From positions 1 to 53,496 of the forward strand of contig JAJFHU010000054.1 in the NCBI GenBank assembly GCA_021775455.1: a DNA stretch of 53,496 nt. The letters are read 5' to 3'. Below the pieces are notes generated by a model. That model had not been told where the DNA came from. It searched no databases and saw only the letters and a list, made by a program, of their open reading frames with translations. A program made the position numbers and the translations under genes. The stretch is from Hyphomicrobiales bacterium (GTDB lineage: Bacteria > Pseudomonadota > Alphaproteobacteria > Rhizobiales > Rhizobiaceae). This document shows positions 26,795 to 52,118 of the stretch, in pieces. Numbering within the stretch: the first letter of the stretch is position 1; each line of letters starts with the position of its first letter.

Positions 26795-26822
26795 ACCAAT
26801 TTAAACCAATTTGAGACCAATT
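26795..26822. promoter_or_regulatory. Phased ACCAATT repeats upstream of tdm
   Basis: Three copies of ACCAATT occur in a row, with CCA at 26796, 26806 and 26817 (steps of 10 and 11 bases), ending about 65 bases before the tdm start. The same kind of array stands before tmoX, amt and the gene at 52161. The spacing puts all copies on one face of the helix, as for an operator bound by several copies of a regulator. Confidence 0.6.
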
Positions 26823-26884
26823 GTTGATTTTTGATCATTCAAATGTATGATGGACCAGCAGTATTCAGGCAGCTGGAAATCCTA

Positions 26885-29260
26885 ATGTCAGACAGTTCTT
26901 TATTCCAATCTGCATCCATGGGGGCACCCAAGCCTTCGATCATATTGCGGCCCGGGCAGGTGGCCCTTCCCGAGGGAATGGAGCGCTATGTGATTGCCGG
27001 TGGCGGGTCGGTAATTGTTCCCGTTGAAACCGGGGATAAAATTAGCGTTGTCGACATGGAAGGCAAGCAGGCATGTGAGCTGATAGGTGTTGATAGCGCC
27101 GGACGGTTCGATGCAAATGTTCTCTCGGAAAAACCCAATGCCAGTGCTGAAGGAATCCAATCCATCCTTAGTGCTGATGACGAAAGCGCGATGAGAGCCC
27201 ACGCTTCCCTCAAGCGTCGCAACATTGATATTTCAAACGCGCGATCTGTAAGGGTATTTGGCGAAGATTCCCCTGCCGGAAATCGGGTGGAAGTAACAGT
27301 GGGACGCGAAGGTATCCTTGTTGCTTGTGTCCCGGGTACACCGATGGATGTGGAATTGCAAAATACGACAACATCGATTGAACTGTTCATTCAGCGTTCC
27401 CGAATTCGGCCCGCGTCTGAAGCGGTCTTGTTGCCAGAACCGCTGGCCGATCCAGTGTTGGACTTCAGAATTCATTCTGCCACAGCGGAAAGTTTTACCG
27501 TCAAGGTGGGCGAGTATATTCAAATCATTGATGTGTCAGGGCGCCAGTGTTCTGACTTCCAGGCTTTTGCAATCGACAAGCTGGATAAAGGAAAAGAGCT
27601 TGGACTGGATGCGACCATTACCAGAACGCTTACCGGAATGACAAACCCTGTGCCAGGTCTGCCAGCCAAAGCGTTCGATAGTGAAATGGAGCCATTGGTT
27701 GAGATCATTCAGGACACCTGCGGGCGTCATGATGTGTTTCTGACTGCATGCAACTCCCGCTATTATGATGACATGGGATATCCGGGGCACGTCAACTGCA
27801 CGGACAATTTCAATACTGTGCTTGATGCCTACTCAATCGCCAAACGCAAAGGGTGGGAAGCGCTAAACTATTTCTACAACACCAACATTGACGAGGCGAA
27901 CCAGCTATATTTTGATGAACCTTGGTCACGTCCCGGCGATTACGTGATGATGCGTGCGCTGACGGATTTGGTCTGTGTTGCATCAGCATGCCCATGCGAT
28001 ATCGATGCAGCCAACGGCTGGGCCCCGACTGACATACACTTACGCACCTACAAGGCAAACGAAGATTTCAAGCGAGCAACGGCATTCAGAATGACACCAG
28101 AAGCAGAACCGGAACTAACCAAGGAAACCGCCTTTCATGAGCGACTTTCCAAGCTCACACGCGACTATACCGAATACAACGGTTACTGGTTGCCCAATCG
28201 ATTTAACAATGAAGGCCCAATCGAAGAATATTGGGCGGCACGTGAAAGATGCGTGGTGATGGATTTGTCGCCGCTTCGCAAATATGAGGTGACGGGGCCA
28301 GATGCCGAAGCACTAATGCAATATTGTGTCACCCGTAATATTCGCAAGCTTTCGCCAAGCCAGGTTGTCTACACCGCCATGTGTTACGAACATGGTGGCA
28401 TGATTGATGACGGGACAGTGTTCCGGCTGGATCAGGATAATTTCCGCTGGATTGGCGGAAATGACCTCTCCGGCATTCAACTGCGTGAGCAGGCTAAAAA
28501 ACTTGGCCTTAAAGCATGGGTTCGCAATTCAACTGACCAACTTCACAACATAGCGGTGCAGGGACCAAACAGCCGTGAATTGCTGAAAGAAATAATCTGG
28601 ACTGCGCCAAACAGACCGAAGCTTGAAGAGCTTCAATGGTTTAACTTTACCCCTGGACGCATTCGGGAATTTGGCGGCGCTCCAGTTGTGGTTTCCCGGA
28701 CCGGCTATAGTGGCGAACTTGGTTACGAAATTTTCTGTCATCCGAAGGATGCAAACACTGTGTTTGACGCAGTTTGGGAGGTTGGAGAAAAGTACGGGCT
28801 AAAACCGCTCGGGCTGGAAGCATTGGACTGGATCCGGATTGAAGCCGGTCTCGTTTTTGCGGGCTATGAATTTTGCGATCAAACCGACCCGTTTGAAGCG
28901 GGAATTGGTTTCACTGTGCCTCTTAAATCCAAGGATGATAATTTCATCGGTAAAGAAGCGCTTATACGCCGGAAAGAAAATCCGCAAAGGAAATTGGTCG
29001 GCCTGGAAATACATTCCCAAGAGGTTGTTGGACAAGGCGATTGCATCCATGTGGGAAGACCACAAATTGGTGAAGTTACCAGTGGCATGCGCTCGGCTGT
29101 CTTGAAGAAAAATATCGCGTTGGCCCGGCTGGATATTGCCCACGCCGAGTTTGGAACTGAAGTCGAAATTGGAAAGCTGGATGGACATGCAAAACGCATA
29201 CCTGCAACTGTTGTTCCATTCCCGCACTATGATCCGAAGAAAGAAAAGCCGCGCAGCTGA
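26885..29260 (+). CDS. tdm: Trimethylamine N-oxide demethylase (DUF1989-GcvT fusion)
   Basis: This 791-residue protein combines an N-terminal demethylase part of the DUF1989 type (about residues 1-390) with a C-terminal GcvT/aminomethyltransferase domain (about 410-790). That fusion is the hallmark of Tdm, which splits TMAO into dimethylamine and formaldehyde; the GcvT part can hand the carbon to tetrahydrofolate. The first part shows conserved metal-site cysteines and histidine in DVFLTACNSRYYDD, YPGHVNCTDNF and VCVASACPCDID. The second has RKYEVTGPDAEALMQYC, VQGPNSRELLKE, RTGYSGELGYEIF and GLEALDWIRIEAG. The ATG at 26885 follows GGAAA. The dioxygenase gene follows after 12 bases. Confidence 0.9.
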   Translation: MSDSSLFQSASMGAPKPSIILRPGQVALPEGMERYVIAGGGSVIVPVETGDKISVVDMEGKQACELIGVDSAGRFDANVLSEKPNASAEGIQSILSADDESAMRAHASLKRRNIDISNARSVRVFGEDSPAGNRVEVTVGREGILVACVPGTPMDVELQNTTTSIELFIQRSRIRPASEAVLLPEPLADPVLDFRIHSATAESFTVKVGEYIQIIDVSGRQCSDFQAFAIDKLDKGKELGLDATITRTLTGMTNPVPGLPAKAFDSEMEPLVEIIQDTCGRHDVFLTACNSRYYDDMGYPGHVNCTDNFNTVLDAYSIAKRKGWEALNYFYNTNIDEANQLYFDEPWSRPGDYVMMRALTDLVCVASACPCDIDAANGWAPTDIHLRTYKANEDFKRATAFRMTPEAEPELTKETAFHERLSKLTRDYTEYNGYWLPNRFNNEGPIEEYWAARERCVVMDLSPLRKYEVTGPDAEALMQYCVTRNIRKLSPSQVVYTAMCYEHGGMIDDGTVFRLDQDNFRWIGGNDLSGIQLREQAKKLGLKAWVRNSTDQLHNIAVQGPNSRELLKEIIWTAPNRPKLEELQWFNFTPGRIREFGGAPVVVSRTGYSGELGYEIFCHPKDANTVFDAVWEVGEKYGLKPLGLEALDWIRIEAGLVFAGYEFCDQTDPFEAGIGFTVPLKSKDDNFIGKEALIRRKENPQRKLVGLEIHSQEVVGQGDCIHVGRPQIGEVTSGMRSAVLKKNIALARLDIAHAEFGTEVEIGKLDGHAKRIPATVVPFPHYDPKKEKPRS

Positions 29261-29272
29261 TGGCCGAGGACA

Positions 29273-30172
29273 ATGATTGAGATTAAGGACAAACATCAAC
29301 AACTGTTTGACCGTGATGGTTTTGTTGTAGTCAAAGACGCCATTTCACATGACAAGATTGAGGCTGTTCGGGCGCGCTTTCCACTTTTGTTTCGCGGGGA
29401 ATTTGAAACCCGAAACGAACCCGATGAATGGAACTGGCGTGAGGGCCGGGACAGTGAAGAACTTACCCGACAAATTTGCAATTGCTGGCGCGCTGACAGG
29501 GTAATTGCATCAATCGTTCTGGCTGAAGATGTCGGTCAAGCATGCGCAACATTACGCGGCTGGAGTGGCGCCAGAATAAATCAGGACAATGTGATCTGGA
29601 AACCGCCGGGTGCAAAGCCACTCGGCTTTCACCAAGACGAAAGTTACCAGCAGTGGAATCGTCCGGGCGAGATGACGACCTGCTGGATTACCCTGGATGA
29701 CACGAGAGCCAGTCAAGGAACAATAGAGTATGTTCGCGGGTCACATCTTTGGCCACTGTCACCCCAGATCGAGCAGTTTCACGCACCGGATGATCCGCTT
29801 GAAGACATGAACCGGGCAGCGGATCACGCGGGAGTAGTTGCAGAAATCATACCAATTGAAGTACCCGCTGGTTCGGCTGTCATTCACCATGGTAAAACAT
29901 GGCATGGTTCACGCGATAATCATGGAACAAATCCCCGCCGCTCGGTGGTTGCCCACTGCATGGCCGCAAACAGTGAGTTTGATCCAGTGGAATCCAGCTC
30001 CATCTATGGCAAATACAAAAAACCAGACTCGCTGGAAATGGATGAGAAGGATTTTCCGGTTTTGTGGTCACAGGGTGGAGAACGGTCTGGGTGGATCGAT
30101 CAGTGGCTATCGAACAAGGATAAGCAAATCCCGGATCAGTTACCCCTCGCAGCTTTCATGAAATTTTCGTAA
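29273..30172 (+). CDS. Phytanoyl-CoA dioxygenase (PhyH)-family Fe(II)/2-oxoglutarate oxygenase
   Basis: This 299-residue protein is a PhyH-type hydroxylase. The iron site is visible as H-x-D in LGFHQDESYQQW and the distal histidine in AVIHHGKTWHGSRDN, followed by NPRRSVV, whose arginine would bind 2-oxoglutarate. It begins 12 bases after tdm on the same strand and is almost certainly co-transcribed with it and under the same phased-repeat site. Oxidative demethylation or hydroxylation of a methylated amine or related solute would fit, but no substrate can be read from the sequence. Its 3' end overlaps the convergent amidotransferase gene by 37 bases. Confidence 0.8.
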   Translation: MIEIKDKHQQLFDRDGFVVVKDAISHDKIEAVRARFPLLFRGEFETRNEPDEWNWREGRDSEELTRQICNCWRADRVIASIVLAEDVGQACATLRGWSGARINQDNVIWKPPGAKPLGFHQDESYQQWNRPGEMTTCWITLDDTRASQGTIEYVRGSHLWPLSPQIEQFHAPDDPLEDMNRAADHAGVVAEIIPIEVPAGSAVIHHGKTWHGSRDNHGTNPRRSVVAHCMAANSEFDPVESSSIYGKYKKPDSLEMDEKDFPVLWSQGGERSGWIDQWLSNKDKQIPDQLPLAAFMKFS

Positions 30173-30855: not shown

Positions 30856-30904
30856 GGAACAACGCCCCCATAATTCTCGCAATAATTTTGGATAAGCATA
30901 GAAC

Positions 30905-30928
30905 AAAAAGGGCTCCATGCGGAGCCCT
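30905..30928 (-). terminator. Rho-independent terminator of the PhyH-monooxygenase-EamA operon
   Basis: On the minus strand an 8-pair stem (AGGGCTCC with GGAGCCCT, loop of 4) is followed directly by a run of five T. It lies 25 bases after the stop of the EamA gene. Confidence 0.8.
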
Positions 30929-30952
30929 AGTCCTCATATTTTTTGCTTTGTT

Positions 30953-31960: not shown

Positions 31961-31971
31961 TGTTGTACTCC

Positions 31972-33684: not shown

Positions 33685-33719
33685 AACGACCCTCCTTTCT
33701 GGATGAGTTGTGGATGGAA

Positions 33720-35697: not shown

Positions 35698-35732
35698 GCC
35701 GCCGCCCTTAATCATGTTGTTTCAACCGCTTG

Positions 35733-37070
35733 TTAAACTTGCAGATAAGTTTCCAGGGAATCGTCCAAGGCATCTTTCCACGGAGTATGGTGAGGTGGTG
35801 CCTGTGTTCCGGTCATTGGCGACACGTACCCATTGTTACGGAAAGTCATGATGCCTTTCTTTTTGTGCTTCTTCCACTCAAAGAAGGCCTGATTGGCGGC
35901 ATCAATATCGAATGAAGGATAATCCGTTTCATCGATCAATTCCTTGGTATATGCACCCTGATAGCGAATGCACGCATAATCATCTTCCAACGCATCTTCA
36001 GCATCTACACGGGCTTTGACATCCGCAAGCATTGCATTTTTGTCAGGTACGCTTATTCGCCCCATTATGATGTCGCGGACATACCAAGCCTGGGCATCGA
36101 ACATATTAAAAGTAAACCATTGATCCTGCATGCCGAGGTAGAAAAGCTTTGGATTGTGGACCCACACAACACCTTTATACAAATCGGCCGCTGCCAAACG
36201 GTTCGCGGTTTTCAAACGCAACGCTTCTTCCATGTACGGAAAATGGTGGATGTATCCGGTGCAAAGAATTACCGCATCAACTTTCTTGCTGCTGCCATCC
36301 TTGAAATATGCGGTATCTTTATCGACTTTCACCAATGCCGGCACTTCTTGCCAGTTGTCCGGCCAGTCGTACCCCATCGGTGCCGTTCTGTGTGCGACGG
36401 TTAAGGATTTGCAGCCATACTTCCAGCATTGGGATCCAATATCTTCAGCAGAATAACTGGTTCCCAGGATCAGTATGTTCTTATCCTTGAACTCTACCGC
36501 ATCACGAAAGTCATGTGCATGAAGTACCCGCCCGTTGAATGTATCAAATCCGGGATAGTGAGGCACATTTGGCGTAGAGAAGTGTCCTCCAGCGTTAATA
36601 ACATAGTCGAATTCTTGATCGTGCTCCTTGTCATTCACCAGGTCTTGATAAACCACACGAAACTTGCCGTTTTCCTTGTATTCAACACGGCGCACCGGGC
36701 AACGAAACCTGATCCAGTCACGCACCCCTGCCTTTTCAACGCGGCCCTTTATATAGTCAAACAGCACAGCTCGCGGAGGATAGGACGCTATCGGCTTTCC
36801 GAAATGCTCCTCAAAAGTATAGTCGGCAAACTCAAGACCTTCCTTGGGGCCGTTTGACCACAGATAACGGTACATAGAGCAGTGGACGGGTTCCCCGTAT
36901 TCATCAAGGCCTGTTCGCCAAGTGTAATTCCACAATCCACCCCAATCATCCTGTTTTTCAAAACAGACGATTTCTGGTATATCCGCACCCTTTTCCCTGG
37001 CCGATTGAAATGCTCTAAGTTGTGCCAGTCCTGAAGGCCCCGCCCCAATTATTGCTACACGTTCTGCCAT
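35733..37070 (-). CDS. tmm: Trimethylamine monooxygenase
   Basis: This 445-residue flavoprotein matches bacterial Tmm nearly end to end: FAD site [23 protein letters not shown]-like [20 protein letters not shown], the FMO motif F-x-G-x3-H in [16 protein letters not shown] site [17 protein letters not shown], and [17 protein letters not shown] and [15 protein letters not shown] at the end. The enzyme uses NADPH and oxygen to oxidise trimethylamine to TMAO in the cytoplasm, supplying Tdm. GGAGG lies 6 bases before the ATG at 37070. It follows the Tmo transporter genes on the same strand (gap 55 bases), as in other marine bacteria. Confidence 0.96.
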
Positions 37071-37125
37071 CAAATCCTCCCATTAACACGCAGATTATTT
37101 TTTCAAAATTCGATTGTTCCAGTTT

Positions 37126-39114
37126 CTATCCTTCGAAACCCAGTTCCTTCTTGCGCTTGCTGGCCCAAGACTGGATCAACCGATCCGCGATGATACCAAG
37201 TGCTGCAATGAAGAAGCCGGCGAGAATGCCGCGTCCGTAATTTTGTGTTGAGATTGACCGCACGACCGCCTGTCCCAAGTCACTAGAACCGATCAGCGCC
37301 GTAATAGCGGTCATTGCCAATGCCATCATGATTGTCTGGTTCAAACCCAACATAATCTCCGGGATTGCGATCGGAAGCTCTACCTTCCACAGGCGTTGCC
37401 AGGAGTTCGCACCATTCATTTTGGCGGCCTCAATGGTAACCGGCGCAATATTCTTCAATCCCAAATAAGTGAACCGGATCGCCGGTACCGTTGCATAGGG
37501 AATTATTGCGATCACATTCGAAAAGATACTCACATTGAACAGCATGATCGCCGGGATCAGGTAAATAAATGACGGGAATGTTTGCAGCGTATCGCAAATG
37601 GACATTGTGATGCTTGCCACCCGCTCTGAGCGCGAACACCAAACCCCCACCGGCACACCTATCAACACACAGAATATTCCCGATATCAGAACCAGGTATG
37701 TGGTCTGCATCGTTTCAACCCAGAAGCCGGTTACGATAAACGAAGCACAAAGGGCAATGCACAACCACATGACTGGCCAGCGACCCAACCGCCACGCACC
37801 CAGAGCAATTACACCAACAAACACGGGCCACGGCAACCACAGGAAGAAATCCCTTATGTTCAGGAAAACATAAGTGGTCATCCATTCTTTCATTGGGTTC
37901 AATATGGGATAGGCGATGATGTTGAAATCGCGGATCAACTGACTCATTTCTTTCTGGAAGGAGAAAGTTGCCTTGCGCGGCAGAATTCGCACCTCTTTGA
38001 AAAACTCCGCAGCAATGTAACTGCCAACCAGTACCACTGCAAAAGCCACCCAGTACCAATTGCGCTCAAACCAACTCTTTGTCGCTGCCAAATGGTCAAC
38101 ATCGCGATATGCATATGCCTGAGTCAGCCGATCCAGCATGATTGCAAGCAAAGTGATGGCAATGCCCTGCTCGATCGCCAGTCCAATCTTGAGTTGTTGC
38201 AATGAGTAAAGAAGCTTGTGACCAAGCCCCGGTTGCCCCGCTATGGAGGCGATCACAACCATCGCAAGGGTTTGCATTACAACCTGGTTCAAACCGAGCA
38301 TCAAGGTTCGCTTTGACGAAGGTAATGCAACCTTCCATAAAAGTTGCCTCGGAGTACAACCCGACATCTGACCCGACTCAAGAATATCACTCGGCACTGT
38401 CTGCAACCCAAGAATTGTACAACGCGCCATTGGCGGCATCGCAAAGATTACCGTTGCGATCAGCGCTGTAACCGACCCGGCCGCGTAAAGAGCGGCAACC
38501 GGAGCCAGATATGCCATGTGTGGTGTGGCCTGCATCAAGTCAAAAATCGGGGTAATGATTTTTGCAGCCAGTCTGGATCGCGTCACCCATATTCCGAGAA
38601 CCAAACCAATGATTGTGGACAGTGGAACTGCAACCAACACAACGGCCATTGTTTTCATTGAGTCTTTCCACAAATGGAAAAACGATAGGTACAAACAACT
38701 TATCAGGCAAAGAAGCGCCAAGCGAATGCCACCCAATCGGTGAGCCAACAAAGTAACACCGGCTGTTACTGCAACCCAAGGCAACGGCCCAAGACCTAAT
38801 GGCTTCATTCCCCTGAAGAGCAGATACTCGGCCCATTTGATGGGTAGTTTCAGCATCGATCCAAAGAACCGTGTTATGTCGGTGAAGGCTACGCCAAAGA
38901 TATAGAGATCACGTTTTAGCCAGTTAATATAATTGGTCACCCACTGCTCGGCCGGGATAACCCATTCGGCAGGCCAGCGTGTTGCACCCGGCCAGATTTG
39001 GGCTAGCAGCACACCGGCAATAATTATGGCTGCAAAACCAAGCGGCAACTCATAGCGCTTCAACCCATTAGGAAGAAATCCGCTGATTGCTGAATTTCTG
39101 GCCACATCCGTCAT
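37126..39114 (-). CDS. tmoW: TMAO ABC transporter, fused permease
   Basis: This 662-residue membrane protein is a tandem fusion of two binding-protein-dependent permease domains. Each half has its own EAA loop for docking the ATPase: one near residues 250-290 (GCTPRQLLWKVALPSSKR, LGLNQVVMQTLAM) and one near 575-615 (NGANSWQRLWKVELPIAIPE, LGLNQTIMMALAMTA). The fused form is characteristic of TmoW, distinguishing it from the single-domain ProW. It forms the channel for TMAO in the inner membrane. Its ATG overlaps the tmoV stop by 4 bases (ATGA). Confidence 0.9.
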   Translation of the reverse strand: MTDVARNSAISGFLPNGLKRYELPLGFAAIIIAGVLLAQIWPGATRWPAEWVIPAEQWVTNYINWLKRDLYIFGVAFTDITRFFGSMLKLPIKWAEYLLFRGMKPLGLGPLPWVAVTAGVTLLAHRLGGIRLALLCLISCLYLSFFHLWKDSMKTMAVVLVAVPLSTIIGLVLGIWVTRSRLAAKIITPIFDLMQATPHMAYLAPVAALYAAGSVTALIATVIFAMPPMARCTILGLQTVPSDILESGQMSGCTPRQLLWKVALPSSKRTLMLGLNQVVMQTLAMVVIASIAGQPGLGHKLLYSLQQLKIGLAIEQGIAITLLAIMLDRLTQAYAYRDVDHLAATKSWFERNWYWVAFAVVLVGSYIAAEFFKEVRILPRKATFSFQKEMSQLIRDFNIIAYPILNPMKEWMTTYVFLNIRDFFLWLPWPVFVGVIALGAWRLGRWPVMWLCIALCASFIVTGFWVETMQTTYLVLISGIFCVLIGVPVGVWCSRSERVASITMSICDTLQTFPSFIYLIPAIMLFNVSIFSNVIAIIPYATVPAIRFTYLGLKNIAPVTIEAAKMNGANSWQRLWKVELPIAIPEIMLGLNQTIMMALAMTAITALIGSSDLGQAVVRSISTQNYGRGILAGFFIAALGIIADRLIQSWASKRKKELGFEG

Positions 39115-40139
39115 GCACTAGTACCAAACAGCGTATTCGACACCATCTCACGGGAGATCATGCCCACCTGTTTGCCCTTGTCATTCACCACTCCACAAGG
39201 AAGGTTGGAAGCTAGAACTTCCCTGGCAACTTCGCCAATCTTGGCGGATGCCGGTACTTTGACGCCGGACAGTTTCCCGCTGATTTTCTTCATGATCGCA
39301 CCTACCGATACAATGCGTTCATGCGGTGCATTTTCAGCAAACTTTGCTACATAATCATCTGCCGGATGGAGAACCAGCCGTTCCGCCGTATCCAACTGGA
39401 CCATTCGGCCATCTTTCATGATGCCAATTCGATCCGCCAGCTTTGTGGCCTCTTCAAAATCGTGAGTAATGAAAACAATTGTTTTGTGGAGTAATTGTTG
39501 CAGTCGAACGAATTCATCCTGCATTTCTGCCCGGATCAGCGGATCAAGCGCGGAAAATGGTTCATCAAGGAACCAGATATCTGGTTCAACCGCCAGCGAA
39601 CGGGCAATACCCACACGCTGTTGCTGTCCGCCTGACAATTCGCGTGGAAAATAGGTTTCACGCCCACCAAGACCAACCAGGTCCACCATTTCCTGGGCCC
39701 GTGTCATTCGTTCATTCCTTGACATGCCCTGCATCTCAAGGGGAAATGCAACATTCTCAATGACGTTTCGATGTGGCAACAATCCGAAATTCTGAAAAAC
39801 CATACCCATCTTGTGACGACGAAGTTCAATCAGTTGATTTTCATTAGCTGCCAGAAGGTTCTTACCTTCATACTCCATTGTACCAGAAGTAGGATCGTTC
39901 AAACGTGTAAGACAACGGATAACAGTGGATTTTCCTGAACCCGACAGGCCCATGATCATCAGGATCTCACCGGCGTGAACATCAAATGAGACGTCCCTTA
40001 CGGCACCAATATAGCCTTCGTTCTTGAAATCTTCATCACCCGGATTGCCGTTGTGGCGATCCATGAAGGCTTTCGGTTCTGTCCCAAAAACCTTCCACAT
40101 GTTTCGGCAACTAATCTTGACGTCAGACTTTTTTGCCAT
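39111..40139 (-). CDS. tmoV: TMAO ABC transporter, ATP-binding protein
   Basis: This 342-residue ProV-like ATPase has Walker A (IMGLSGSGKSTVIRCL), Q-loop (MVFQNFGLLPHRNV), signature (ELSGGQQQRVGIARSLA), Walker B (IWFLDEPFSALDP) and the switch histidine (IVFITHDFEEATKLADR). A short C-terminal CBS-like segment (about 285-342, ISGKLSGVKVPASAKIGEVA) may sense ionic strength, as in related osmolyte transporters. It energises uptake through TmoW. The tmoX-tmoV gap holds a strong stem-loop. Confidence 0.93.
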   Translation of the reverse strand: MAKKSDVKISCRNMWKVFGTEPKAFMDRHNGNPGDEDFKNEGYIGAVRDVSFDVHAGEILMIMGLSGSGKSTVIRCLTRLNDPTSGTMEYEGKNLLAANENQLIELRRHKMGMVFQNFGLLPHRNVIENVAFPLEMQGMSRNERMTRAQEMVDLVGLGGRETYFPRELSGGQQQRVGIARSLAVEPDIWFLDEPFSALDPLIRAEMQDEFVRLQQLLHKTIVFITHDFEEATKLADRIGIMKDGRMVQLDTAERLVLHPADDYVAKFAENAPHERIVSVGAIMKKISGKLSGVKVPASAKIGEVAREVLASNLPCGVVNDKGKQVGMISREMVSNTLFGTSA

Positions 40140-40184
40140 GCCTGCTGTGGACCCCTCATTTATTGTTTTTTTATTAAAGCAAAA

Positions 40185-40215
40185 ATAACCGGGCGATGGA
40201 ACTCCGCCCGGTTAT
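40185..40215 (-). terminator. Stem-loop between tmoX and tmoV, probable attenuator
   Basis: An 11-pair stem (ATAACCGGGCG at 40185-40195 with CGCCCGGTTAT at 40205-40215) is followed on the minus strand by five T. Because the downstream genes belong to the same transporter, partial termination or mRNA protection would raise the binding protein over the membrane parts. Confidence 0.75.
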
Positions 40216-40236
40216 ATTAATCACATAATCTCGTGA

Positions 40237-41187
40237 TTAGTTTTTCCAGCTGGAAATCACGTCAGCGTTGTCTACGATCCATTTGTCCGCAGCTTCCTCA
40301 GCTTCCAAGCCGTCAACATCAACCATCAATGCCGCAGCAGCGATCTGCGCATTGGAGAAGTTGACTTTCTGCATGATGCCCCAAGCATTTGGATACTTGT
40401 CCGCAAGACCAGGCCATGCAGCTTTCTTCAACCAACCACCGTGTGGTGCACCGCAGTCTCCAGTTGCATTCGGGTTTGGACCCCAAGAAGCATCTTCAAA
40501 ACATGCTGGTTCTGGTTCTGGAAAGTTCACAAAACGGCCCTTGAACTTGGACTCGATGAAGTTTGGTGTCCAGTTAAACAGGACAACAGGCTTTTTCTGG
40601 TCATAGGCAGACTGAAGTTCTGCCCAAAGTGTGGCAGCCTGGCCGACATTGATTGCGGCAAAGTTCATTTCAAGTGCTTTCACACGGTCCGCGTAGTTTT
40701 TACCCCAGTCAGCTGGCGGTCCAACAAATCGACCCTTGGGTGCTGTTTCAGCGGTCGCGAACTGCTCCGCACAAGCGTCCAGACCCTTCCATTCTTCTGC
40801 ACCCGGACATGTTTCCAGAACATAATCAGGAATCCACCACTCTTCGCGAGTTAGTGCATCGTGTGTTCCGGCATCAATCATGCCGTCATTTGCGACTGCA
40901 TCTTCGAAAGCCTTTTTCATTGAACCTTCCCAGGCTTCAACCTGGAAATGCATGTCACCGCGTCCAATGGCGGCGAACTGAAGTTGTGAATCTGATGGTG
41001 CATATTCAACAGTATAACCTTCGCCTTCCAATACTTTGCCTACAACGTAGGAAAGCACTAACTGGCTGGTCCAGTTATTCTGCACGATGATGATCGGATC
41101 ATCTGATTCAGCTGCTGCCATTGCAGAAAACGGCAATGCAACTCCCATTGCCAACACAGTTGCAAATTTCATGGTACTTTTGAGCAT
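40237..41187 (-). CDS. tmoX: TMAO ABC transporter, periplasmic binding protein
   Basis: This 316-residue protein has a signal peptide (MLKSTMKFATVLAMGVALPF, cleavage near AMA-AAE) and the OpuAC-like fold of quaternary-amine binding proteins. Tryptophans that form the aromatic cage are seen in IIIVQNNWTSQLVLSYVVG, FQVEAWEGSMKKA, REEWWIPDYVLETCP and VVLFNWTPNFIESK, and a cysteine pair lies in ACFEDASWGPN/GDCGAPHGGW. It binds TMAO in the periplasm. GGGAGGAATTCT precedes the ATG. The promoter region shared with the divergent LysR gene carries the phased CCA repeats. Confidence 0.93.
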   Translation of the reverse strand: MLKSTMKFATVLAMGVALPFSAMAAAESDDPIIIVQNNWTSQLVLSYVVGKVLEGEGYTVEYAPSDSQLQFAAIGRGDMHFQVEAWEGSMKKAFEDAVANDGMIDAGTHDALTREEWWIPDYVLETCPGAEEWKGLDACAEQFATAETAPKGRFVGPPADWGKNYADRVKALEMNFAAINVGQAATLWAELQSAYDQKKPVVLFNWTPNFIESKFKGRFVNFPEPEPACFEDASWGPNPNATGDCGAPHGGWLKKAAWPGLADKYPNAWGIMQKVNFSNAQIAAAALMVDVDGLEAEEAADKWIVDNADVISSWKN

Positions 41188-41560
41188 AGAATTCCTCCCT
41201 AAAGGTTAGGCTTCCTACAAGAAGCCCTTGACGCCAAACAGCATACAGGCCCGCATTACGTGGACCTTTCAATTCTCCGTGCTGCTTACGGAACTATGTA
41301 TTTTGACTCCAACTAAACCCAATAACAGACCAATTTGAACCAAATTACATACCAGTTACACACTACAGCGTTTCTTCAATTTTCAGAGCACAATTTTTTG
41401 ATTTTTTGCCCAAAGAAATTAGTGGCAAACTCTCAAATGTGTGTTTTACTGCGAATTTGCGCGGGCAAATGAAGTAGCAAACCCACGCACCAATGCGAAG
41501 CCTGGAAACAGCGTCAACCAAACGAAACAAGGTTCATGAACCAATTCTGAGGACTTACAA
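41188..41560. other. Divergent intergenic control region between tmoX and LysR gene
   Basis: This 373-base gap has no gene. Its main feature is the phased repeat array at 41309-41356. It is AT-rich near 41390-41410 (CAATTTTTTGATTTTTTG). I see no clear sigma-70 or sigma-54 promoter that I would defend, although promoters for both flanking genes must be here. Confidence 0.6.
41309..41356. promoter_or_regulatory. Phased CCA repeats in the tmoX/LysR control region
   Basis: CCA occurs at 41309, 41319, 41330, 41340 and 41352, with steps of 10, 11, 10 and 12 bases; three copies are within ACCA (at 41329, 41339 and 41351). The array is 120-170 bases upstream of the tmoX start and 205 bases upstream of the LysR gene. 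Its right part shares CAATAACAGACC and ACCAGTT with the array at 52079-52118. Confidence 0.6.
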
Positions 41561-42472
41561 GTGCTTAAACAGCGCAACCTTCTACCCCCACTGGACTATT
41601 TCATAGCCTTTGAATCTGCGGCTACACAGGAGAGCTTTGCAGCAGCTTCAAGGGATTTAAATATCAGTGAGACTGCAGTCAGCAGAAAAATCAAACTACT
41701 TGAACTGCATTTTACCTGCCCGCTTTTCATCAGAAGTCACCGGTCCATCACACTTACACCTGAAGGCCAACAACTGCTCAACTCTATCAAACCTGCATTG
41801 AATCAACTGATAACCGCATCAGAGGAATTATTCTCTCTTGAAAGCCCAAACACGGTTACCCTCTCCGCAACCAATTCGGTTGCTTCTCTTTGGCTGATGC
41901 CCCGCTTGCAGAATTTCAGACGCCGAAACTCCAGGATCAAAATCAACCTTGTAGCTTCTGACAATGATGAGGAGTGTCTCGGCAAGAATGTTGATATTGC
42001 CTTGTTGCGGGGAGAAGGAAAATGGTCGGATCACCACGCTGAAATGCTGTTTGGAGAGTGTGTATTTCCGGTTTGTTCACCGGATTACATGAAAACTAAT
42101 CCAGAATTTGACAACCTGGAAGCACTTGCCAATCATTCGTTGATAGAAGTTTCAAGCGAGCACAAGGAATGGCTGAACTGGCAGACATGGCTGCAAAAGA
42201 AACTAGGACGCAACATGACCCTGAAGCAAACCGTGACGGTCAACACCTATCCCCTTGCCATTCAGGCCGCTGTTGATGGCATTGGCGTCTGCCTTGGTTG
42301 GAAGCACTTGATCGATCCACTTCTACAATCAGGAGAACTGATTCAGCCTTACCTGGAAGAGACAGTTGAGACAAAGTCAGGTTACTTCATTCTTACATCA
42401 AAGAACCGAAAGTCTTTTCCCGCACAAAACATTGTTGAGAAGTGGCTGTGGAGCTTCAAGGCCGCTCGGTAG
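41561..42472 (+). CDS. LysR-family transcriptional regulator
   Basis: This 303-residue protein has the N-terminal winged helix (FIAFESAATQESFAAASRDL, SETAVSRKIKLLELHFTCPL, about residues 10-70) and the LysR substrate-binding domain (SLWLMPRLQNFRRRN, DIALLRGEGKW, LAIQAAVDGIGVCLGWKHL). It resembles the GcvA-type branch of LysR regulators. It is divergent from tmoX and shares its control region, so it most likely regulates methylated-amine uptake, perhaps with TMAO or trimethylamine as effector; that is inference. The GTG at 41561 follows AGGA at 8 bases. It converges on soxG. Confidence 0.88.
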   Translation: MLKQRNLLPPLDYFIAFESAATQESFAAASRDLNISETAVSRKIKLLELHFTCPLFIRSHRSITLTPEGQQLLNSIKPALNQLITASEELFSLESPNTVTLSATNSVASLWLMPRLQNFRRRNSRIKINLVASDNDEECLGKNVDIALLRGEGKWSDHHAEMLFGECVFPVCSPDYMKTNPEFDNLEALANHSLIEVSSEHKEWLNWQTWLQKKLGRNMTLKQTVTVNTYPLAIQAAVDGIGVCLGWKHLIDPLLQSGELIQPYLEETVETKSGYFILTSKNRKSFPAQNIVEKWLWSFKAAR

Positions 42473-46370: not shown

Positions 46371-46379
46371 GATGCGCTC

Positions 46380-47630: not shown

Positions 47631-47654
47631 CGCTGTGTCCCTTCTTCGCTGAGA

Positions 47655-48998
47655 TTAGCTCCACGGATATGGGCTGTTGGAAACCGGATGCAATTTGCCT
47701 TCGGCAAAACGAGAGAAGCGGAATGGCTCCAGCAATTCCTGTTTTTCACCGAGTACTTCATCTGCAATCAAATGACCTACGCCGATCATTTTCCAGCCGT
47801 GATTGGAATCCGCGATCACCGCAACATTTTCCTTGAAGTGATCAAAGACCGGGAAAGAGTCAGGTGTAAAGCAACCAATGCCACCGGAAGATTCCTTGTG
47901 ATATTTCGGCATCGTTCCTTCGTAACGCTTCTGACAATGTGCCAATGCGGATACCCACATGTGCGCAAATTCATGGGAGGCTACAAATTCGGGGCTGGAT
48001 GGACCGTATGGATCAATCGCAACTTCGTCTGCGGGCTTGTCTACCTTATAGGGAGATGCGCCGCCCTGAATTCCACCGAAGTGCCAATCAGGTTTGTAGT
48101 AAATTCCCCACATTTCGTCGGTGATTTTTGATCCATCTACCGTTGAATAAAGCGGAGCATCGGTATCTACGTGAATAACCGGTGGCAGATTTCCATCATT
48201 AGCCTTACCGAGTTCTGGATCAACCTGAAGAACACCTTCTTCAAGTTGCCAGAAGCGCCACATGTCAACGTCTTCGTGAACATCACCTTTGAGATCTTTC
48301 AATGTGATCTGCTTTGGCATGTCGAGCATGTTCCAGAAATCACGTACCCAGGGGCCCGCACCAACGATTACATGATCACACTGGATGTTGCCCTTGTCGG
48401 TTTCAACTGCACTTACTACGTCTGACCCATCTTCGGTGATGAAACCTTTTACCGTTACGCCAGTAATGACGCGGACACCGAGTGCTTCCACCTTGTCTGC
48501 AAGTGCGTACATGGTTTTGGTCTGGTTTGAGAAACCACCGCGTTTTTCATGAAGAACGGTCGTGATCCCCTGTGCTTGCCAGTCATCGAAGATACCGCGC
48601 ATATAATGAGTACACTGCTGCTCGCCTTCAATGAATTCGCTTTCGTAGCCGATAGCCTGTTGCTGTTCATAAATTGAGCGAACATCACTGTGCATCGATT
48701 CAGATGAAATCTGCATGTACCCAACCGGATGGAAAGAAAGGCCTTCAGGATCACTTTCCCAGATGTTTACAGAATGCGCCATCAGCTTGCGCATGGCAGG
48801 CTGGAAGTAATTGTTGCGGACCACGCCGCAGGCAACGCCTGAAGCTCCGGCGCCAATTCCAGACTTCTCCAGTATGACGATATCCTCACCTGAGCCTTTG
48901 CCGCTTTCTTTAAGTCGCTCAGCCAGTCTCCAAGCTGTAGAAAAACCATGAATGCCAGCGCCAATAATTACGTATTTTGATTGCTCAGGAAATGCCAT
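47655..48998 (-). CDS. FAD-dependent DAO-family oxidoreductase heading the sox operon
   Basis: This 447-residue protein has a SoxB-like DAO fold (KYVIIGAGIHGFSTAWRLAE, EKSGIGAGASGVACGVVRN, and SSGGIGCFTPDSFPVFDHF, DSNHGWKMIGVGHLIADEV). It differs from SoxB in the active-site region and in having long insertions, so it is not a duplicate of it. It is co-transcribed with soxBDAG (gap 24 bases) and probably feeds it, for example by oxidising dimethylglycine or another N-methyl amino acid to sarcosine; this is inference. The ATG at 48998 follows GGAGG at 8 bases; an ATG at 49046 would extend it into the control region. Confidence 0.82.
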   Translation of the reverse strand: MAFPEQSKYVIIGAGIHGFSTAWRLAERLKESGKGSGEDIVILEKSGIGAGASGVACGVVRNNYFQPAMRKLMAHSVNIWESDPEGLSFHPVGYMQISSESMHSDVRSIYEQQQAIGYESEFIEGEQQCTHYMRGIFDDWQAQGITTVLHEKRGGFSNQTKTMYALADKVEALGVRVITGVTVKGFITEDGSDVVSAVETDKGNIQCDHVIVGAGPWVRDFWNMLDMPKQITLKDLKGDVHEDVDMWRFWQLEEGVLQVDPELGKANDGNLPPVIHVDTDAPLYSTVDGSKITDEMWGIYYKPDWHFGGIQGGASPYKVDKPADEVAIDPYGPSSPEFVASHEFAHMWVSALAHCQKRYEGTMPKYHKESSGGIGCFTPDSFPVFDHFKENVAVIADSNHGWKMIGVGHLIADEVLGEKQELLEPFRFSRFAEGKLHPVSNSPYPWS

Positions 48999-49044
48999 AC
49001 CCGGTTCCTCCAGATTATTTCGTGGGAGTTTGCGCCCAAACATC

Positions 49045-49077
49045 ATGATTAAAAACTATATTCTGGACATTAATCAT
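49045..49077. promoter_or_regulatory. Inverted repeat operator in the sox/AraC divergent gap
   Basis: ATGATTAA at 49045-49052 and TTAATCAT at 49070-49077 form a perfect 8-base inverted repeat with centres 25 bases apart. It lies between the start of the sox operon (48998) and the divergent AraC-type regulator (49126), the expected place for that regulator's site. Confidence 0.5.
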
Positions 49078-49125
49078 CACAAATGAGACATACGTGGCGT
49101 AGAATGACAGTTTTTGAACAAGCGC

Positions 49126-50088
49126 ATGAATTCCGGTTCTTCAGCACCAAACAAGCATTTTTGCTTTGTCCTGATTCCCAGTTTTTCACTGGTGGCGTTT
49201 TCCTGTGCAACCGATGCCTTGCGGGCCGCCAATGAATTCATTGGATCAAAGGCCTATTCGTGGAATGCCGTCTCGGCCGGCGAGAACATCACCAAATCTT
49301 CCAGTGGATTTGCAATTGCTGCACCGGATATCTCCGAAGCAGGAGAACCGGATGTCATAGTGATTTGCGGCGGTGACCGGTCTCATGAATATCGTAATCA
49401 GGCGTTGACGAACTGGCTTCAGGCAAAGTCGCATCAAAATTGTGCCATTGGTTCCATATCAGATGGTGCATTTGTCCTGGCTGATATTGGTCTGTTTTCG
49501 AAAGTTCCTTCGACCATTCACTGGCGATGCTTTGACGCCTATCGAGAGCGATTTCCCGAACTGGATATTCGACCATCGATCATGGAAATCTCTGACAACC
49601 GGTTTTCCTGCGCTGGCGGAACGGCCAGTCTTGATCTGATGCTTCATTTCATAAGCGCTGATCATGGTGCGGAAACTGCAAGCCGGGTCGCTGACAATTA
49701 CTTCCTCGACATCATTCGGGATACCTCCAAGGAACAGCACCTGACAAACGCATACCGGGTAGCGGGCAAAAATGAACATCTTGCCCAAGCCTTGTTGCTG
49801 ATGGAAAACAATCTTGAGGCTCCGCTCTCAATTGCGGGGCTGTCGGTTGCGGTGGGCGTCTCCAAGCGTCAGCTTGACCGGATATTCAAACGATATGTGG
49901 GCAGTTCACCTCAAGCCCATTACCGGGAATTGCGCCTCGCACGAGCGTCTGGATTGCTTATTCAAACCGGAATGGGAATAACCGAAATTGCCCTTGCATG
50001 CGGGTTTCAATCTGCTTCGCACCTGGGAAAATTTTTCAAACAACGTTTTGCTGTCACACCGGGTGAGTTCAGAAGAAACGCAGGGTGA
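49126..50088 (+). CDS. GlxA/GbdR-like AraC-family transcriptional regulator
   Basis: This 320-residue protein has an N-terminal DJ-1/PfpI-like sensing domain (FCFVLIPSFSLVAFSCATDA, DVIVICGGDRSHEY, SISDGAFVLADIGL, FSCAGGTASLDLMLHF) and a C-terminal AraC DNA-binding domain with two helix-turn-helix units (LSIAGLSVAVGVSKRQLDRI and ITEIALACGFQSASHLGKF). This architecture is that of GbdR, the glycine betaine/dimethylglycine sensor. Being divergent from the sox operon, it likely activates it in response to a betaine-derived compound. The ATG at 49126 was preferred to a TTG at 49114. Confidence 0.85.
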   Translation: MNSGSSAPNKHFCFVLIPSFSLVAFSCATDALRAANEFIGSKAYSWNAVSAGENITKSSSGFAIAAPDISEAGEPDVIVICGGDRSHEYRNQALTNWLQAKSHQNCAIGSISDGAFVLADIGLFSKVPSTIHWRCFDAYRERFPELDIRPSIMEISDNRFSCAGGTASLDLMLHFISADHGAETASRVADNYFLDIIRDTSKEQHLTNAYRVAGKNEHLAQALLLMENNLEAPLSIAGLSVAVGVSKRQLDRIFKRYVGSSPQAHYRELRLARASGLLIQTGMGITEIALACGFQSASHLGKFFKQRFAVTPGEFRRNAG

Positions 50089-50107
50089 TGTCTGTCAGTT
50101 ACCAACA

Positions 50108-50135
50108 AAAAGGGCGGCATAAATGCCGCCCTTTT
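50108..50135. terminator. Bidirectional terminator between AraC regulator and amt operon
   Basis: A long stem (AAAAGGGCGGCA with TGCCGCCCTTTT, about 12 pairs) with T runs on both sides separates two convergent genes that end at 50088 and 50155. Confidence 0.85.
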
Positions 50136-50154
50136 CTTAAGATTTAAGGAAGCG

Positions 50155-50370
50155 TCAATATCGATCAATCGACGCTTCTGAGTCCTTTTTGTCGGCAATT
50201 CGAGCTTCATCATTCAGCATGGCATTTTCACCACGGGTTTGAACCACGTGGAACCATAGCCAAAAGATGACACCTGCAATTACCAGGATGGTTTCACTAC
50301 CCTGAAACGGGTAGATGGCACCAACATTGGCCAAATCAACAGCCCAGCTATCATAACCAATTGTGGACAT
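50155..50370 (-). CDS. Small single-helix membrane protein co-transcribed with amt
   Basis: This 71-residue protein has one membrane helix (ETILVIAGVIFWLWFHVV, about residues 26-43) with a short N-terminal part (MSTIGYDSWAVDLANVGAIY) and a charged C-terminal tail (about 45-71, rich in D, E, K and R). It begins 25 bases after the amt stop with a good ribosome site (AAGGAG, 7 bases before ATG) and ends before a strong terminator. I do not recognise a named family. Its position suggests it is a partner or regulator of the Amt channel. Confidence 0.75.
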   Translation of the reverse strand: MSTIGYDSWAVDLANVGAIYPFQGSETILVIAGVIFWLWFHVVQTRGENAMLNDEARIADKKDSEASIDRY

Positions 50371-50394
50371 ATGTATTCTCCTTATCAGTTAGTG

Positions 50395-51756
50395 TTAGAT
50401 GGCTGCTTTTTCGGCAGCTTGTACGTCGGCGACAGCAGCCTGGAAGGCGGCTTCATCATGATGGTCCAGACCCTGGAGCTCATTGGCAGGCGGAATTCGA
50501 AGCAAATCGAATGCGGCCAGGATCTTCGACACGATGTAGGCCGGGATAAATCCAAGCACCACAAACATGATGATTGCACCAATGAACTGACCCCACGGGC
50601 TGATCGTTGCATAGCCTTCAAACGGAGATGACGGAGCACCCCACAACATGAAGCCACAAATTATCAATCCGATAAAGCCCGCATAGCCATGAACGGCCAC
50701 GGCACCTACAGCATCATCGATCTTGAACTTGCGTTCCACCCAGAAGTGCAGCTTGTATGCACAGACAGCACCTATTGCACCGATGAACATTGCCTGGATC
50801 GGATGGTAGAGATCATTGCCTGCAGAAGCGCAGATAAGGCCCGCAAGACCACCTGAGTATGTCCAGAATGGATCACCTTTTGAAATCATGTAAGCGGCAA
50901 TCAAACCACCAGACAGAGACATCAGGAAGTTGAATGTAATCGCACTCAATGAAGTTGGCGCAAGATAGATGTTGGTAGCTGTCCAGGTTTCACCAGTGAT
51001 CTGACCACCAATTACTTCAGGCGATATTGCCGGAACATTACATGCAGCATAAAAGCCCCAAAAGCCGGTATAGATCATAAAGAGACCAAGGGTAACCATC
51101 CACGGATTGTGTGGCGGAATATCTCTTGGTGTTCCGTCCGCAGCGAACTTGCCAAGGCGCGGTCCAAGAACCACCAGAACACCAAGTGCGTATCCGCCAG
51201 CGATCGCATGGATTACGCCGGAAGCATATGCATCGTGATAACCGAGTAACTGCACCATCCAGCCAGCGTAATGCCAGCCCCAGGCTGCATCGATGATCCA
51301 GAAAACCGAACCGATCAACACTGCATGGATCCAGAATGCCGATGAACGTATGCGTTCAATCACAGAGCCGGAGACAATCGATGCCGCCGTCCATGAAAAC
51401 AGCAGGAATGCTGCCCAGAACACGCCGGTTATTCGGTCGCCCAGATTGGTACCCATGGTTTCCGACCAAGGCGCATTGGCAGCAGCAAGTGCTGCGTTGT
51501 CGCCCGAAGCAATCCCGCCAAGAAACGGAAATGCCGGAAACGCCCAGTAAATCCACCACCCGAAGAAGAAGAATGTGATGGTTACCAGCGGTATTAGCAT
51601 GGTGTTTTTCATGAGGGTGTGCATGTGGTTGCGGCGGCGACTTGCCCCCACTTCATACATGCAAAACCCGACATGGATTAAGAACATGAATACCACAGTG
51701 ACGAAGTAATAGAACTCCGTGAACACCGTGGTAATTGCGTCAAGATTGTTGCCCAT
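50395..51756 (-). CDS. amt: Ammonium (possibly methylammonium) transporter, Amt family
   Basis: This 453-residue channel protein has about eleven membrane helices. The key pore residues are kept: aspartate and first histidine in YHDAYASGVIHAIAGG (D-x7-H as in AmtB) and the second histidine in VGAVAVHGYAGFIG. FLIHVGFCMYEVGASRRRN, NAVW-like MKNTMLIPLVTITFFFFGWW and FSWTAASIVSGSVIERIR are further family blocks. The C-terminal tail is longer and more acidic than in E. coli AmtB. It would import ammonium or retain that released from amine breakdown. AAGGAGG precedes the ATG. No glnK is adjacent. Confidence 0.93.
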   Translation of the reverse strand: MGNNLDAITTVFTEFYYFVTVVFMFLIHVGFCMYEVGASRRRNHMHTLMKNTMLIPLVTITFFFFGWWIYWAFPAFPFLGGIASGDNAALAAANAPWSETMGTNLGDRITGVFWAAFLLFSWTAASIVSGSVIERIRSSAFWIHAVLIGSVFWIIDAAWGWHYAGWMVQLLGYHDAYASGVIHAIAGGYALGVLVVLGPRLGKFAADGTPRDIPPHNPWMVTLGLFMIYTGFWGFYAACNVPAISPEVIGGQITGETWTATNIYLAPTSLSAITFNFLMSLSGGLIAAYMISKGDPFWTYSGGLAGLICASAGNDLYHPIQAMFIGAIGAVCAYKLHFWVERKFKIDDAVGAVAVHGYAGFIGLIICGFMLWGAPSSPFEGYATISPWGQFIGAIIMFVVLGFIPAYIVSKILAAFDLLRIPPANELQGLDHHDEAAFQAAVADVQAAEKAAI

Positions 51757-51900
51757 AAGGTCCTCCTTGTTTGCTGGTCCTAAGCAAAGACCAACCAGTC
51801 TATCCGGAGTGGTTAAACTCCAGTCCCTTCAACGAATGCCGATTAACCCCATTGCCCACCTGGTCCCCTATCATGCACTCGCCAATCCTACCTTTGATTC

Positions 51901-51937
51901 CCAACTCTAACCAAAGTTAACCAAACATTAACCCAAA
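51901..51937. promoter_or_regulatory. Phased CCA repeats upstream of amt
   Basis: CCA occurs at 51901, 51911, 51921 and 51933 (steps of 10, 10 and 12), in the form CCAACTCTAA, CCAAAGTTAA, CCAAACATTA and CCCAAATTTT. The pattern matches the arrays before tdm and tmoX. Confidence 0.6.
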
Positions 51938-52078
51938 TTTTCAAGCGGATCGAATCTTTTTGATAGTATCATGAATATTTTTTTCCTGACAGGAAATTTT
52001 CAACTGGTTTTGATTGATTTTCATTGAAATTTTTGCTCCCCAGCAAAAAGACTCGCAATTTCTTAACAACAAATCTAA

Positions 52079-52118
52079 ACCAATAACAGACCGTTGACAA
52101 ACCAATTCGCAACCAGTT
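52079..52118. promoter_or_regulatory. Strict 11-base CCA repeats upstream of the gene at 52161
   Basis: CCA/CCG units start at 52080, 52091, 52102 and 52113, exactly 11 bases apart: CCAATAACAGA, CCGTTGACAAA, CCAATTCGCAA, CCAGTTTT. It shares CTAAACC, AATAACAGACC and ACCAGTT with the tmoX array. Confidence 0.65.

Follow-up and report, generated by a model that had tools for sequence, protein, structure and literature searches.

Helically phased ACCAAT repeats as a putative shared operator of methylated-amine genes, with a GntR/FCD protein as candidate reader

Four arrays of ACCAATT-like units, repeated in steps of 10-12 bases, precede tdm, tmoX-tmm, amt and a conserved gene at 52161 in the window, the 53,496-nucleotide stretch of DNA from a Hyphomicrobiales bacterium analysed here (Table 1). 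The sequence-only reading had proposed that one helically phased direct-repeat operator is shared by methylated-amine and ammonium genes, and the conservation of the arrays in relatives supports this at the level of sequence. We consider it quite likely that the arrays serve as the operator for a single methylated-amine regulon, read most probably by a GntR/FCD protein encoded outside the window. The regulon would then include tdm, tmoX-tmm, amt, the 52161 gene, a glutamine synthetase (GS)-like/NMG-synthase-like operon and the gntR-gmaS-like unit divergent from it; formate-tetrahydrofolate ligase (FTHFS) is a probable further member. Methylated amines make up an important share of marine dissolved organic nitrogen. 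Two regulators of methylated-amine breakdown in Ruegeria have been named in a 2026 paper, the main text of which gives no operator, including for the regulator TmoR (0 matches for motif, binding site or footprint; PMC13390433). The arrays amount to a DNA code from which the regulon can be read off by sequence alone in several alphaproteobacterial families, and they point to one candidate protein.

Table 1. Arrays, genes and candidate regulators, with window positions unless another contig is given
Feature	Position	Strand	Remarks
tdm array, three ACCAATT units	26793..26826	+	CCA at 26796, 26806, 26817; E 1.8e-5
tdm, TMAO demethylase	26831..29260	+	NF053776, 1218.6 bits
TMAO uptake and TMA oxidation genes	35733..41187	-	profile matches
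tmm	35733-37073	-	
Permease gene of TMAO uptake cluster	37126-39114	-	
ATPase gene of TMAO uptake cluster	39111-40139	-	
tmoX, binding protein	40237-41187	-	name from the sequence-only reading and the literature
tmoX array, five units	41308..41362	+	CCA at 41309, 41319, 41330, 41340, 41352; E 5.8e-6
LysR-family regulator	41561..42472	+	profile match; candidate of the sequence-only reading
TGGACA-N15-GAGACA direct repeat, 21-bp period	49064..49090	+	between FAD oxidoreductase and TmaR-like gene
AraC-family (GATR subfamily) regulator, TmaR-like	49126..50088	+	not favoured as array reader
amt, ammonium-transporter family	50395..51756	-	PF00909, TIGR00836
amt array, four units, upstream of amt	51899..51942	+	CCA at 51901, 51911, 51921, 51933
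52161-gene array, four units	52077..52121	+	CCA at 52080, 52102, 52113; CCG at 52091; E 8.4e-6
52161 gene, conserved protein	52161..52772	+	orthologues in relatives
GntR/FCD regulator gene	G000:C21:102924-103613		outside window; divergent from GS-like operon, array between

All four arrays lie where the sequence-only reading had placed them, except that the copy listed at 52091 is not CCA and forms part of a degenerate unit, ACCGTTG. The tdm array is directly upstream of the likely -35 region of tdm, the start of which is more likely the ATG at 26886 (judged by eye), and the tmoX array reads TTGGT in the sense of tmoX. The polysaccharide and sox/mgd units are indeed without arrays, as nowhere else in the window reaches a chain-scan score of at least 18. 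Runs of four CCA spaced 10-12 bases apart occur four times in the window, all on the plus strand, two belonging to arrays (41309 and 51901) and two falling in coding sequence (5996 and 38024), against a mean of 0.47 on both strands and a maximum of 2 in 40 dinucleotide shuffles. Fourfold CCAA chains were observed twice, compared with none in 40 shuffles, and threefold ACCA chains twice, compared with a shuffle mean of 0.03. Genome-wide, the crude pattern ACCA-N6-8-ACCA-N6-8-ACCA showed no enrichment (17 matches, 12 of them inside long reading frames, versus 17 for the reversed control) and was rejected as an unspecific array marker. The signal comes from the longer unit together with the intergenic position.

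At E<=0.01, the sequence-only model R1, built from six arrays of the 3.5-Mb genome, recovered there only those six, which match it by construction; the amt array is the weakest (E 0.006). The next-best match, C59:8535 (E 0.126, or 0.018 with a second model), lies close to phage genes (terminase and portal, about 2 kb away) and was taken as a chance match. Two of the six arrays are outside the window: one before the GS-like/NMG-synthase-like operon, which adjoins a gmaS-like gene, and one between a quinone-oxidoreductase gene and the FTHFS gene. The prediction that further hits would include gmaS came close: an array is present in the gmaS region, where it precedes the GS-like/NMG-synthase-like operon. 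The 499-residue GS-like protein itself was rejected as GmaS, scoring 184.8 bits to the chain of 7cql (which we take to be Ruegeria GmaS), versus 665.5 bits for the adjoining type III GS, which is GmaS-like. The dmm genes were not located in this genome. The 52161 protein had no Pfam or NCBIfam match, and its gene travels with amt and tmaR-like genes.

Array positions are conserved upstream of orthologous genes across several alphaproteobacterial families. Among 69 loci of relatives never picked by the array search (779,910 bp; the array-blind set), 18 arrays were found, all 18 within the 500 bp that precede one of the target genes (the GS-like gene, gntR, tmoX, tmm, amt or the 52161 orthologue) and none elsewhere, in a set that lost only duplicate stretches and retains the known array loci L050, L058, L105, L106 and L112. 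A smaller set of 48 loci (435,112 bp), omitting these five and a few others, held no array. Some records carry two labels (L062/L075, L063/L085, L064/L087 and L066/L079). Within the array-blind loci, arrays precede amt in 8/11, the 52161 orthologue in 4/10, tmm in 2/6, tdm in 0/5 and FTHFS in 0/8 cases; the tdm and tmm misses come from one class relative and four Rhizobium-type plasmids, and the FTHFS array was seen in the own genome alone.

The tdm array keeps its place and orientation in L093, L094, L097, L155, L158 and L159. The tmoX arrays are oriented as in the window in L074, L077, L078, L081, L093, L095 and L158 and the other way in L163 and L164, and in L080 an array precedes tmm, followed by a tmoX-like gene. 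Counted by rows, some of which are sister genomes, the units read ACCA in sense before tdm in 7/7, TTGGT before tmoX in 8/10 and TTGGT before the GS-like gene in 18/18 (15 loci). Arrays at amt relatives are of mixed orientation (L065, L074, L076, L078, L080, L081, L106, L112 and L153), and those before 52161 orthologues occur in L077, L078, L080 and L081. Around 57 arrays, taken from a scan that allowed spacings of 9-13, 75 of the 82 CCAAT-CCAAT distances of at most 15 are 10 or 11. Of 139 plasmid records matched by tdm, 4 were examined (Rhizobium etli, Sinorhizobium RAC02, Shinella and Rhizobium AB2/73), and their tdm/tmm clusters contain no array scoring at least 18; the same holds for GS-like loci on one Ruegeria and one Paracoccus plasmid (50% identity). 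The R1 scan of 297 genomes of the order (E<=0.01) matched the own genome and four others, and missed arrays that were detected later beside gntR in eight genomes. A class-wide scan of 385 genomes with model R2 and strict filters returned only the own genome (3/6 arrays) and G528 (0.8 Mb); it missed arrays in G370, G573 and G579 and is a weak guide to absence.

The arrays co-occur, and are syntenic, with the gntR gene. Its product combines a GntR winged helix (PF00392, 2.6e-19) with an FCD domain (PF07729, 4e-25); since its best NCBIfam model, NanR, gives 97.1 bits, far below the curated cut-off of 260, we call it NanR-like only. An orthologue is present in 22 of the 297 genomes and in 4/4 non-self genomes of the array scan (hypergeometric 1.9e-5). 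G185 has a TmaR-like orthologue but neither a GntR match at 1e-45 nor an array below E 0.5. When scored with a matrix derived solely from own-genome arrays, 28 of 41 non-self gntR promoters reached p<=0.01 against shuffles, among them 19 of the 30 in genomes without previously known arrays; arrays were found at 2/27 control promoters of other AraC genes, both being tmoX arrays, and at 2/21 of the TmaR clade, one being a tmoX array. The own gntR gene also has an array beside it. Among the 13/41 promoters above p 0.01, L169, L180 and L181 have an array farther upstream. No clear array was seen at the gntR promoters of L186-L188 (family f31), L196/L197/L200 (f89), L207 and L208; distant orthologues lacking clear arrays have identities of about 39-44%, and the distant L208 promoter carries TTGGT-CCT-ACCAA, a classical palindromic arrangement. 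Some significant promoters score low in absolute terms (L202, L203 and L206). Plasmids searched with the GntR protein at E<=1e-30 gave 5 records, none from Rhizobium, the best at 36%. The unit ACCAAT/ATTGGT fits the FadR-subfamily half-site box TKGT/ACMA.

Linkage to the GS-like operon, and not recognition, might explain why GntR and arrays co-occur, and other readers were weighed. The LysR protein adjoining tmoX, the nearest candidate of the sequence-only reading, is divergent from tmoX with the array between them in the window and in L074, but a close LysR protein (79%) stands beside an array only there. L078 offers a mere 26% match, an AraC gene takes the place in L093/L095, and the tmoX arrays of L077 and L081 and the tmm array of L080 have no LysR match beside them, making this protein a very improbable reader. 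Head-to-tail repeats of 10-11 bp are the usual layout of OmpR/PhoB-type sites, and the analogy drawn to that class holds for the geometry; the comparative evidence, with arrays tracking the GntR gene across 297 genomes, instead favours a GntR/FCD (FadR-subfamily) protein. An unlinked response regulator of this type or another oligomeric regulator is a candidate reader of low probability. A lack of function, with the arrays as chance or compositional repeats, would agree with the crude threefold ACCA pattern being no commoner genome-wide than its reversed control, but is scarcely credible given position and orientation conserved before orthologous genes in several families and the 18/18 arrays upstream of target genes in array-blind loci.

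The TmaR-like AraC protein deserves separate mention, as its gene lies in the cluster of the window, another GATR AraC gene adjoins the tmoX array in G036/G113, and in L077 two ATTGGT units lie in the gap separating the FAD oxidoreductase gene from tmaR. According to the excerpt of PMC5806209 consulted, the direct repeats bound by GATR AraC proteins have half-sites spaced 21 bp apart; here, the two HTHs of each monomer would contact successive grooves and a dimer would cover four units. However, 17/21 TmaR-clade promoters have a repeat of another kind, GAC[AG]-N17/18-GAC[AG], and only two have arrays; the interval from mgd/FAD oxidoreductase to tmaR, in the window as in the relatives, contains no array scoring at least 20. 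G036, G113 and G283 have arrays yet only 35-40% AraC relatives and no TmaR-clade orthologue, and the two AraC genes that adjoin arrays do not belong to the TmaR-like clade. We therefore rejected the TmaR-like protein, which has little likelihood of reading the arrays; the TGGACA-N15-GAGACA repeat is probably its operator, predicted from sequence and distinct from the arrays.

For the preferred GntR/FCD reader, we infer binding and its cooperativity, as well as the effector and the sign of regulation. Each ACCAAT (equivalently ATTGGT) would be one half-site box, and head-to-tail repetition every 10-11 bp would align several dimers on one face of the DNA, where their binding may be cooperative, like that of NanR to its repeats. 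At the GS-like, tmm and gntR promoters, the repeats fall within the likely core promoter or directly behind it; therefore, the GntR protein should repress there, and it might be released by a methylated-amine metabolite. The tmoX array, like that of tdm, is just upstream of the likely -35, and at these two promoters either activation or repression could occur. There is about an even chance that the GntR/FCD protein runs the whole regulon through three to five TGGT boxes, repressing or activating according to array position, from uptake, TMA oxidation and TMAO demethylation to the GS-like/NMG-synthase-like operon, ammonium transport and one-carbon disposal, beside a separate TmaR-type AraC circuit with its own 21-bp repeat.

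No description of the array operator was found in the literature searched. In likeness to OmpR/PhoB-type sites, the arrays are head-to-tail repeats of 10-11 bp; they differ in having a GntR/FCD candidate. TmaR (SPO1584), the AraC master activator of TMA catabolism, has targets overlapping with the array genes, and the TmaR-like gene in the window adjoins mgd-like genes; unlike the array genes, the TmaR-like clade is marked by a separate GACA direct repeat of 21 bp. TmoR (SPO1553), a GntR repressor that binds the tmm promoter in Ruegeria pomeroyi, resembles the candidate in its family and its methylated-amine genes, but acted on tmm alone in Ruegeria, in contrast to the many promoters with arrays here (PMC13390433). 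A close parallel is Escherichia coli NanR of the FadR subfamily, which shares the TGGT box, the head-to-tail repeats and the GntR regulator: in the parts of the sources consulted, FadR-subfamily boxes are TKGT/ACMA, NanR uses direct repeats TGGTATAW (PMC4494728), and three NanR dimers bind (GGTATA)3 cooperatively (PMC8012715). Several dimers on one array, a feature of NanR (PMC8012715), may have a counterpart in the GntR/FCD protein. The N-terminal extension that drives the cooperativity of NanR is not evident in the own protein, where the HTH domain begins at residue 9 and residue 12 aligns with NanR residue 36; several orthologues have possible longer starts. NagQ, of the HutC subfamily of the GntR family, likewise has a TGGT box in head-to-tail repeats (TGGTATT, as far as the source consulted goes). 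Unlike the 8-letter NanR repeat, the period here is 10-11 bp, and unlike NanR and NagQ, there are three to five units per array and six arrays in one genome. The few FadR-subfamily direct-repeat operators would thereby be extended to a 10-11 bp form serving many promoters.

The sequence-only reading had placed phased CCA arrays before four transcription units (tdm, tmoX-tmm, amt and the gene at 52161), and these ACCAATT-like arrays were found at the positions it gave, except that position 52091 reads CCG instead of CCA. Chains of four CCA units were in excess in the window (4 versus a mean of 0.47 in dinucleotide shuffles), two of the four lying in coding sequence, and chains of four CCAA units occurred twice, versus none in 40 dinucleotide shuffles. 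The bare pattern of three ACCA units showed no genome-wide enrichment (17 matches versus 17 control matches); 12 of the 17 are contained in long reading frames, and the remaining five comprise two window arrays, two new arrays (see table) and locus L002, which has no ACCAAT unit. A sequence-only model of the six own arrays, run against the 3.51-Mb own genome at E≤10, gave seven matches. Six were the training arrays (E 1.5e-6 to 0.006), by construction, and the seventh (E 0.126) has phage terminase and portal genes at a distance of about 2 kb; what is informative is that nothing else matched at E≤10. Inside the amt array, TTAA-N7-TTAA was seen at 51918-51935, a CtrA-like spacing that is probably a coincidence of overlapping units.

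Features located in the window, the own genome (G000, contigs C) and fetched loci (L)
Feature	Location	Strand	Remark
FAD oxidoreductase (DAO family)	window 47655-49046	-	divergent to TmaR-like gene
GACA-type direct repeat, 21-22 bp period	window 49064-49090		upstream of TmaR-like gene
52161 protein, 203 residues	window 52161-52772		
New own array	C21:102610		flanked by glutamine-synthetase-like gene and GntR gene
GntR/FCD gene	G000:C21:102924-103613		
New own array	C1:37321		flanked by quinone-oxidoreductase gene and formate-tetrahydrofolate ligase (FTHFS)
Glutamine-synthetase-like (GS-like) 499-residue ligase with NMG-synthase-like subunits	L019:2821-7563	-	
GmaS-like type III GS	L019:8813-10186		distinct from GS-like ligase

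In line with their reading as one regulatory code, the arrays are kept in order- and class-level relatives before tmoX, tmm, amt, tdm and the GS-like operon. An order-wide model scan (297 genomes, E≤0.01) matched the own genome, G036, G113, G133 and G283. Arrays precede tdm orthologues (69-74% identity) in G036, G113 and G283, and tmoX as well in G036 and G113, and in G133 an array precedes a periplasmic binding protein gene. Class-level relatives (G370, G573, G579, G480, G650) carry arrays before the GS-like operon, amt, tmm or tmoX. A single contig search with an AraC-protein alignment (window plus five orthologues) yielded 15 loci, 14 with near-full-length relatives. At an array score of at least 20, arrays precede tmoX in L074, L077, L078 and L081, tmm in L080, amt in L074, L076, L078, L080, L081 and L065 (the last from a separate search), the 52161 orthologue in L077 and the GS-like operon in L076 and L077. 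No array at this score was found in the mgd/FAD oxidoreductase-tmaR gap of the AraC-search loci; that of L077 holds two ATTGGT units. Array orientation is conserved by target, with ACCA in sense before tdm (7/7 rows) and TTGGT in sense before GS-like genes (18/18 rows, 15 loci) and tmoX (8/10), amt being the exception with mixed orientation; several loci are sister genomes, and the rows are therefore not independent events. An array-like match was also seen at L123:1507-1542 in G528, which belongs to the same class and has a genome of 0.8 Mb.

As an array-blind control, 69 loci (779,910 bp, duplicates dropped) were taken that had been retrieved through protein searches or for their position near protein matches, and in no case through an array search. 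At threshold (k3≥21 or k4≥24) they contained 18 arrays, 58 loci having none, and each of the 18 has tmoX, tmm, amt, the 52161 orthologue, a GS-like gene or gntR at most 500 bp downstream. Counted by target start at threshold 19, arrays precede gntR in 4/4 cases, amt in 8/11, tmoX in 6/8, GS-like genes in 4/6, the 52161 orthologue in 4/10, tmm in 2/6, tdm in 0/5 and FTHFS in 0/8. Four Rhizobium-type plasmids are among the tdm and tmm misses, both GS-like misses are 50%-identical plasmid homologues, and the FTHFS misses are genomes with no GntR match (E≤1e-45). Given 0/8 in these loci, support for the FTHFS array comes only from the own genome.

In Ruegeria, the AraC protein TmaR is reported to be the master activator and the GntR protein TmoR to repress tmm, DMA and TMAO being inferred from mutants as effectors of TmoR (PMC13390433). 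Because a TmaR-like AraC gene sits beside mgd-like genes in the window, its product was tested first as the array reader, and was not favoured. G036, G113 and G283 are arrayed, yet their AraC relatives reach just 35-40%, and the AraC genes beside the G036 and G113 arrays fall outside the TmaR-like clade; G185, with a clade orthologue (50%) and no GntR match, has no array below E 0.5. Moreover, the clade's own promoters carry not the ACCA array but a GAC[AG]-N17/18-GAC[AG] direct repeat, present in 17 of 21 loci (the window, L065, L074-L079, L081-L084, L087 and L100-L103), versus a mean of about 0.6 pairs spaced 21-22 bp apart in shuffles of the whole promoter set. In the window, L018 and L019 taken together, a stricter form occurs a single time, at window 49064-49090. 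Judged from sequence, this GACA-type repeat is the probable operator of the TmaR-like clade. The TmaR paper does not describe it in its main text, which nowhere uses the terms motif, binding site, direct repeat, half-site or footprint (PMC13390433). The repeat agrees with GATR AraC sites, in which a 15-bp spacer separates the half-sites (PMC5806209), and differs from the ACCA array.

The gene travelling with the arrays is that of a GntR/FCD protein and is transcribed divergently to either the GS-like operon or a FAD oxidoreductase gene. At E≤1e-45 an orthologue is present in 22/297 order genomes, own included. The four other genomes matched in the array scan all have it (hypergeometric 1.9e-5), as do 8/8 array genomes when G000, G148, G006 and G094 are added, the last three picked via the AraC search. 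Fourteen GntR genomes without previously known arrays were scanned, and an array scoring at least 21 lies within 1.5 kb of gntR in eight (G009, G018, G037, G038, G061, G079, G114 and G247), that of G018 standing before tmoX. G140 has a weak array (20.1) and G031, G109, G191, G213 and G233 have none within 1.5 kb; G140 and these five all belong to family f31. A class search found 20 non-self GntR genomes among 308, four of them already known array carriers. When 41 non-self gntR promoters (250 bp) were compared with 300 shuffles each, array scores reached p≤0.01 in 28 and p≤0.05 in 33, and p≤0.01 in 19/30 from genomes without previously known arrays. Among controls, arrays occurred in 2/27 other AraC promoters, both being the G036/G113 tmoX arrays, and in 2/21 TmaR-clade promoters, L076 (its tmoX array) and L077. 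The FAD oxidoreductase is divergent to the TmaR-like gene in the window but to the GntR gene in many of the other genomes, an arrangement that would suit a gene common to both circuits.

The GS-like ligase is 71-92% conserved across array genomes. Its promoters in L019, L076, L077, L154 and L156, read by eye as -35/-10, consist of TTGTCA, 18 bases, then TAGGTT, TAGGCT, TATGCT or TATAGT, with ATTGG units inside the spacer, and in several genomes the arrays at gntR promoters lie near the start codon, suggesting that the candidate regulator represses GS-like and gntR promoters by occlusion. The tdm and tmoX arrays lie right next to the likely -35, on its upstream side, a position in which FadR-type proteins can also activate, and activation may be possible there. 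In many relatives the 52161 protein, with no Pfam or NCBIfam match, is encoded beside amt or a tmaR-like gene, with arrays before it in some.

In the literature searched, which covers few subscription journals, no description of the array operator was found. We rate the arrays as a candidate FadR-subfamily direct-repeat operator of 10-11 bp period serving a regulon, in a form that appears new. In one promoter of 42 (L208), TTGGT-CCT-ACCAA presents the array box in palindromic form. Among known GntR sites, FadR-subfamily boxes are TKGT/ACMA, direct repeats are TGGTATAW for NanR and TGGTATT for the HutC-subfamily protein NagQ (PMC4494728), and (GGTATA)3 is bound cooperatively by three NanR dimers (PMC8012715).
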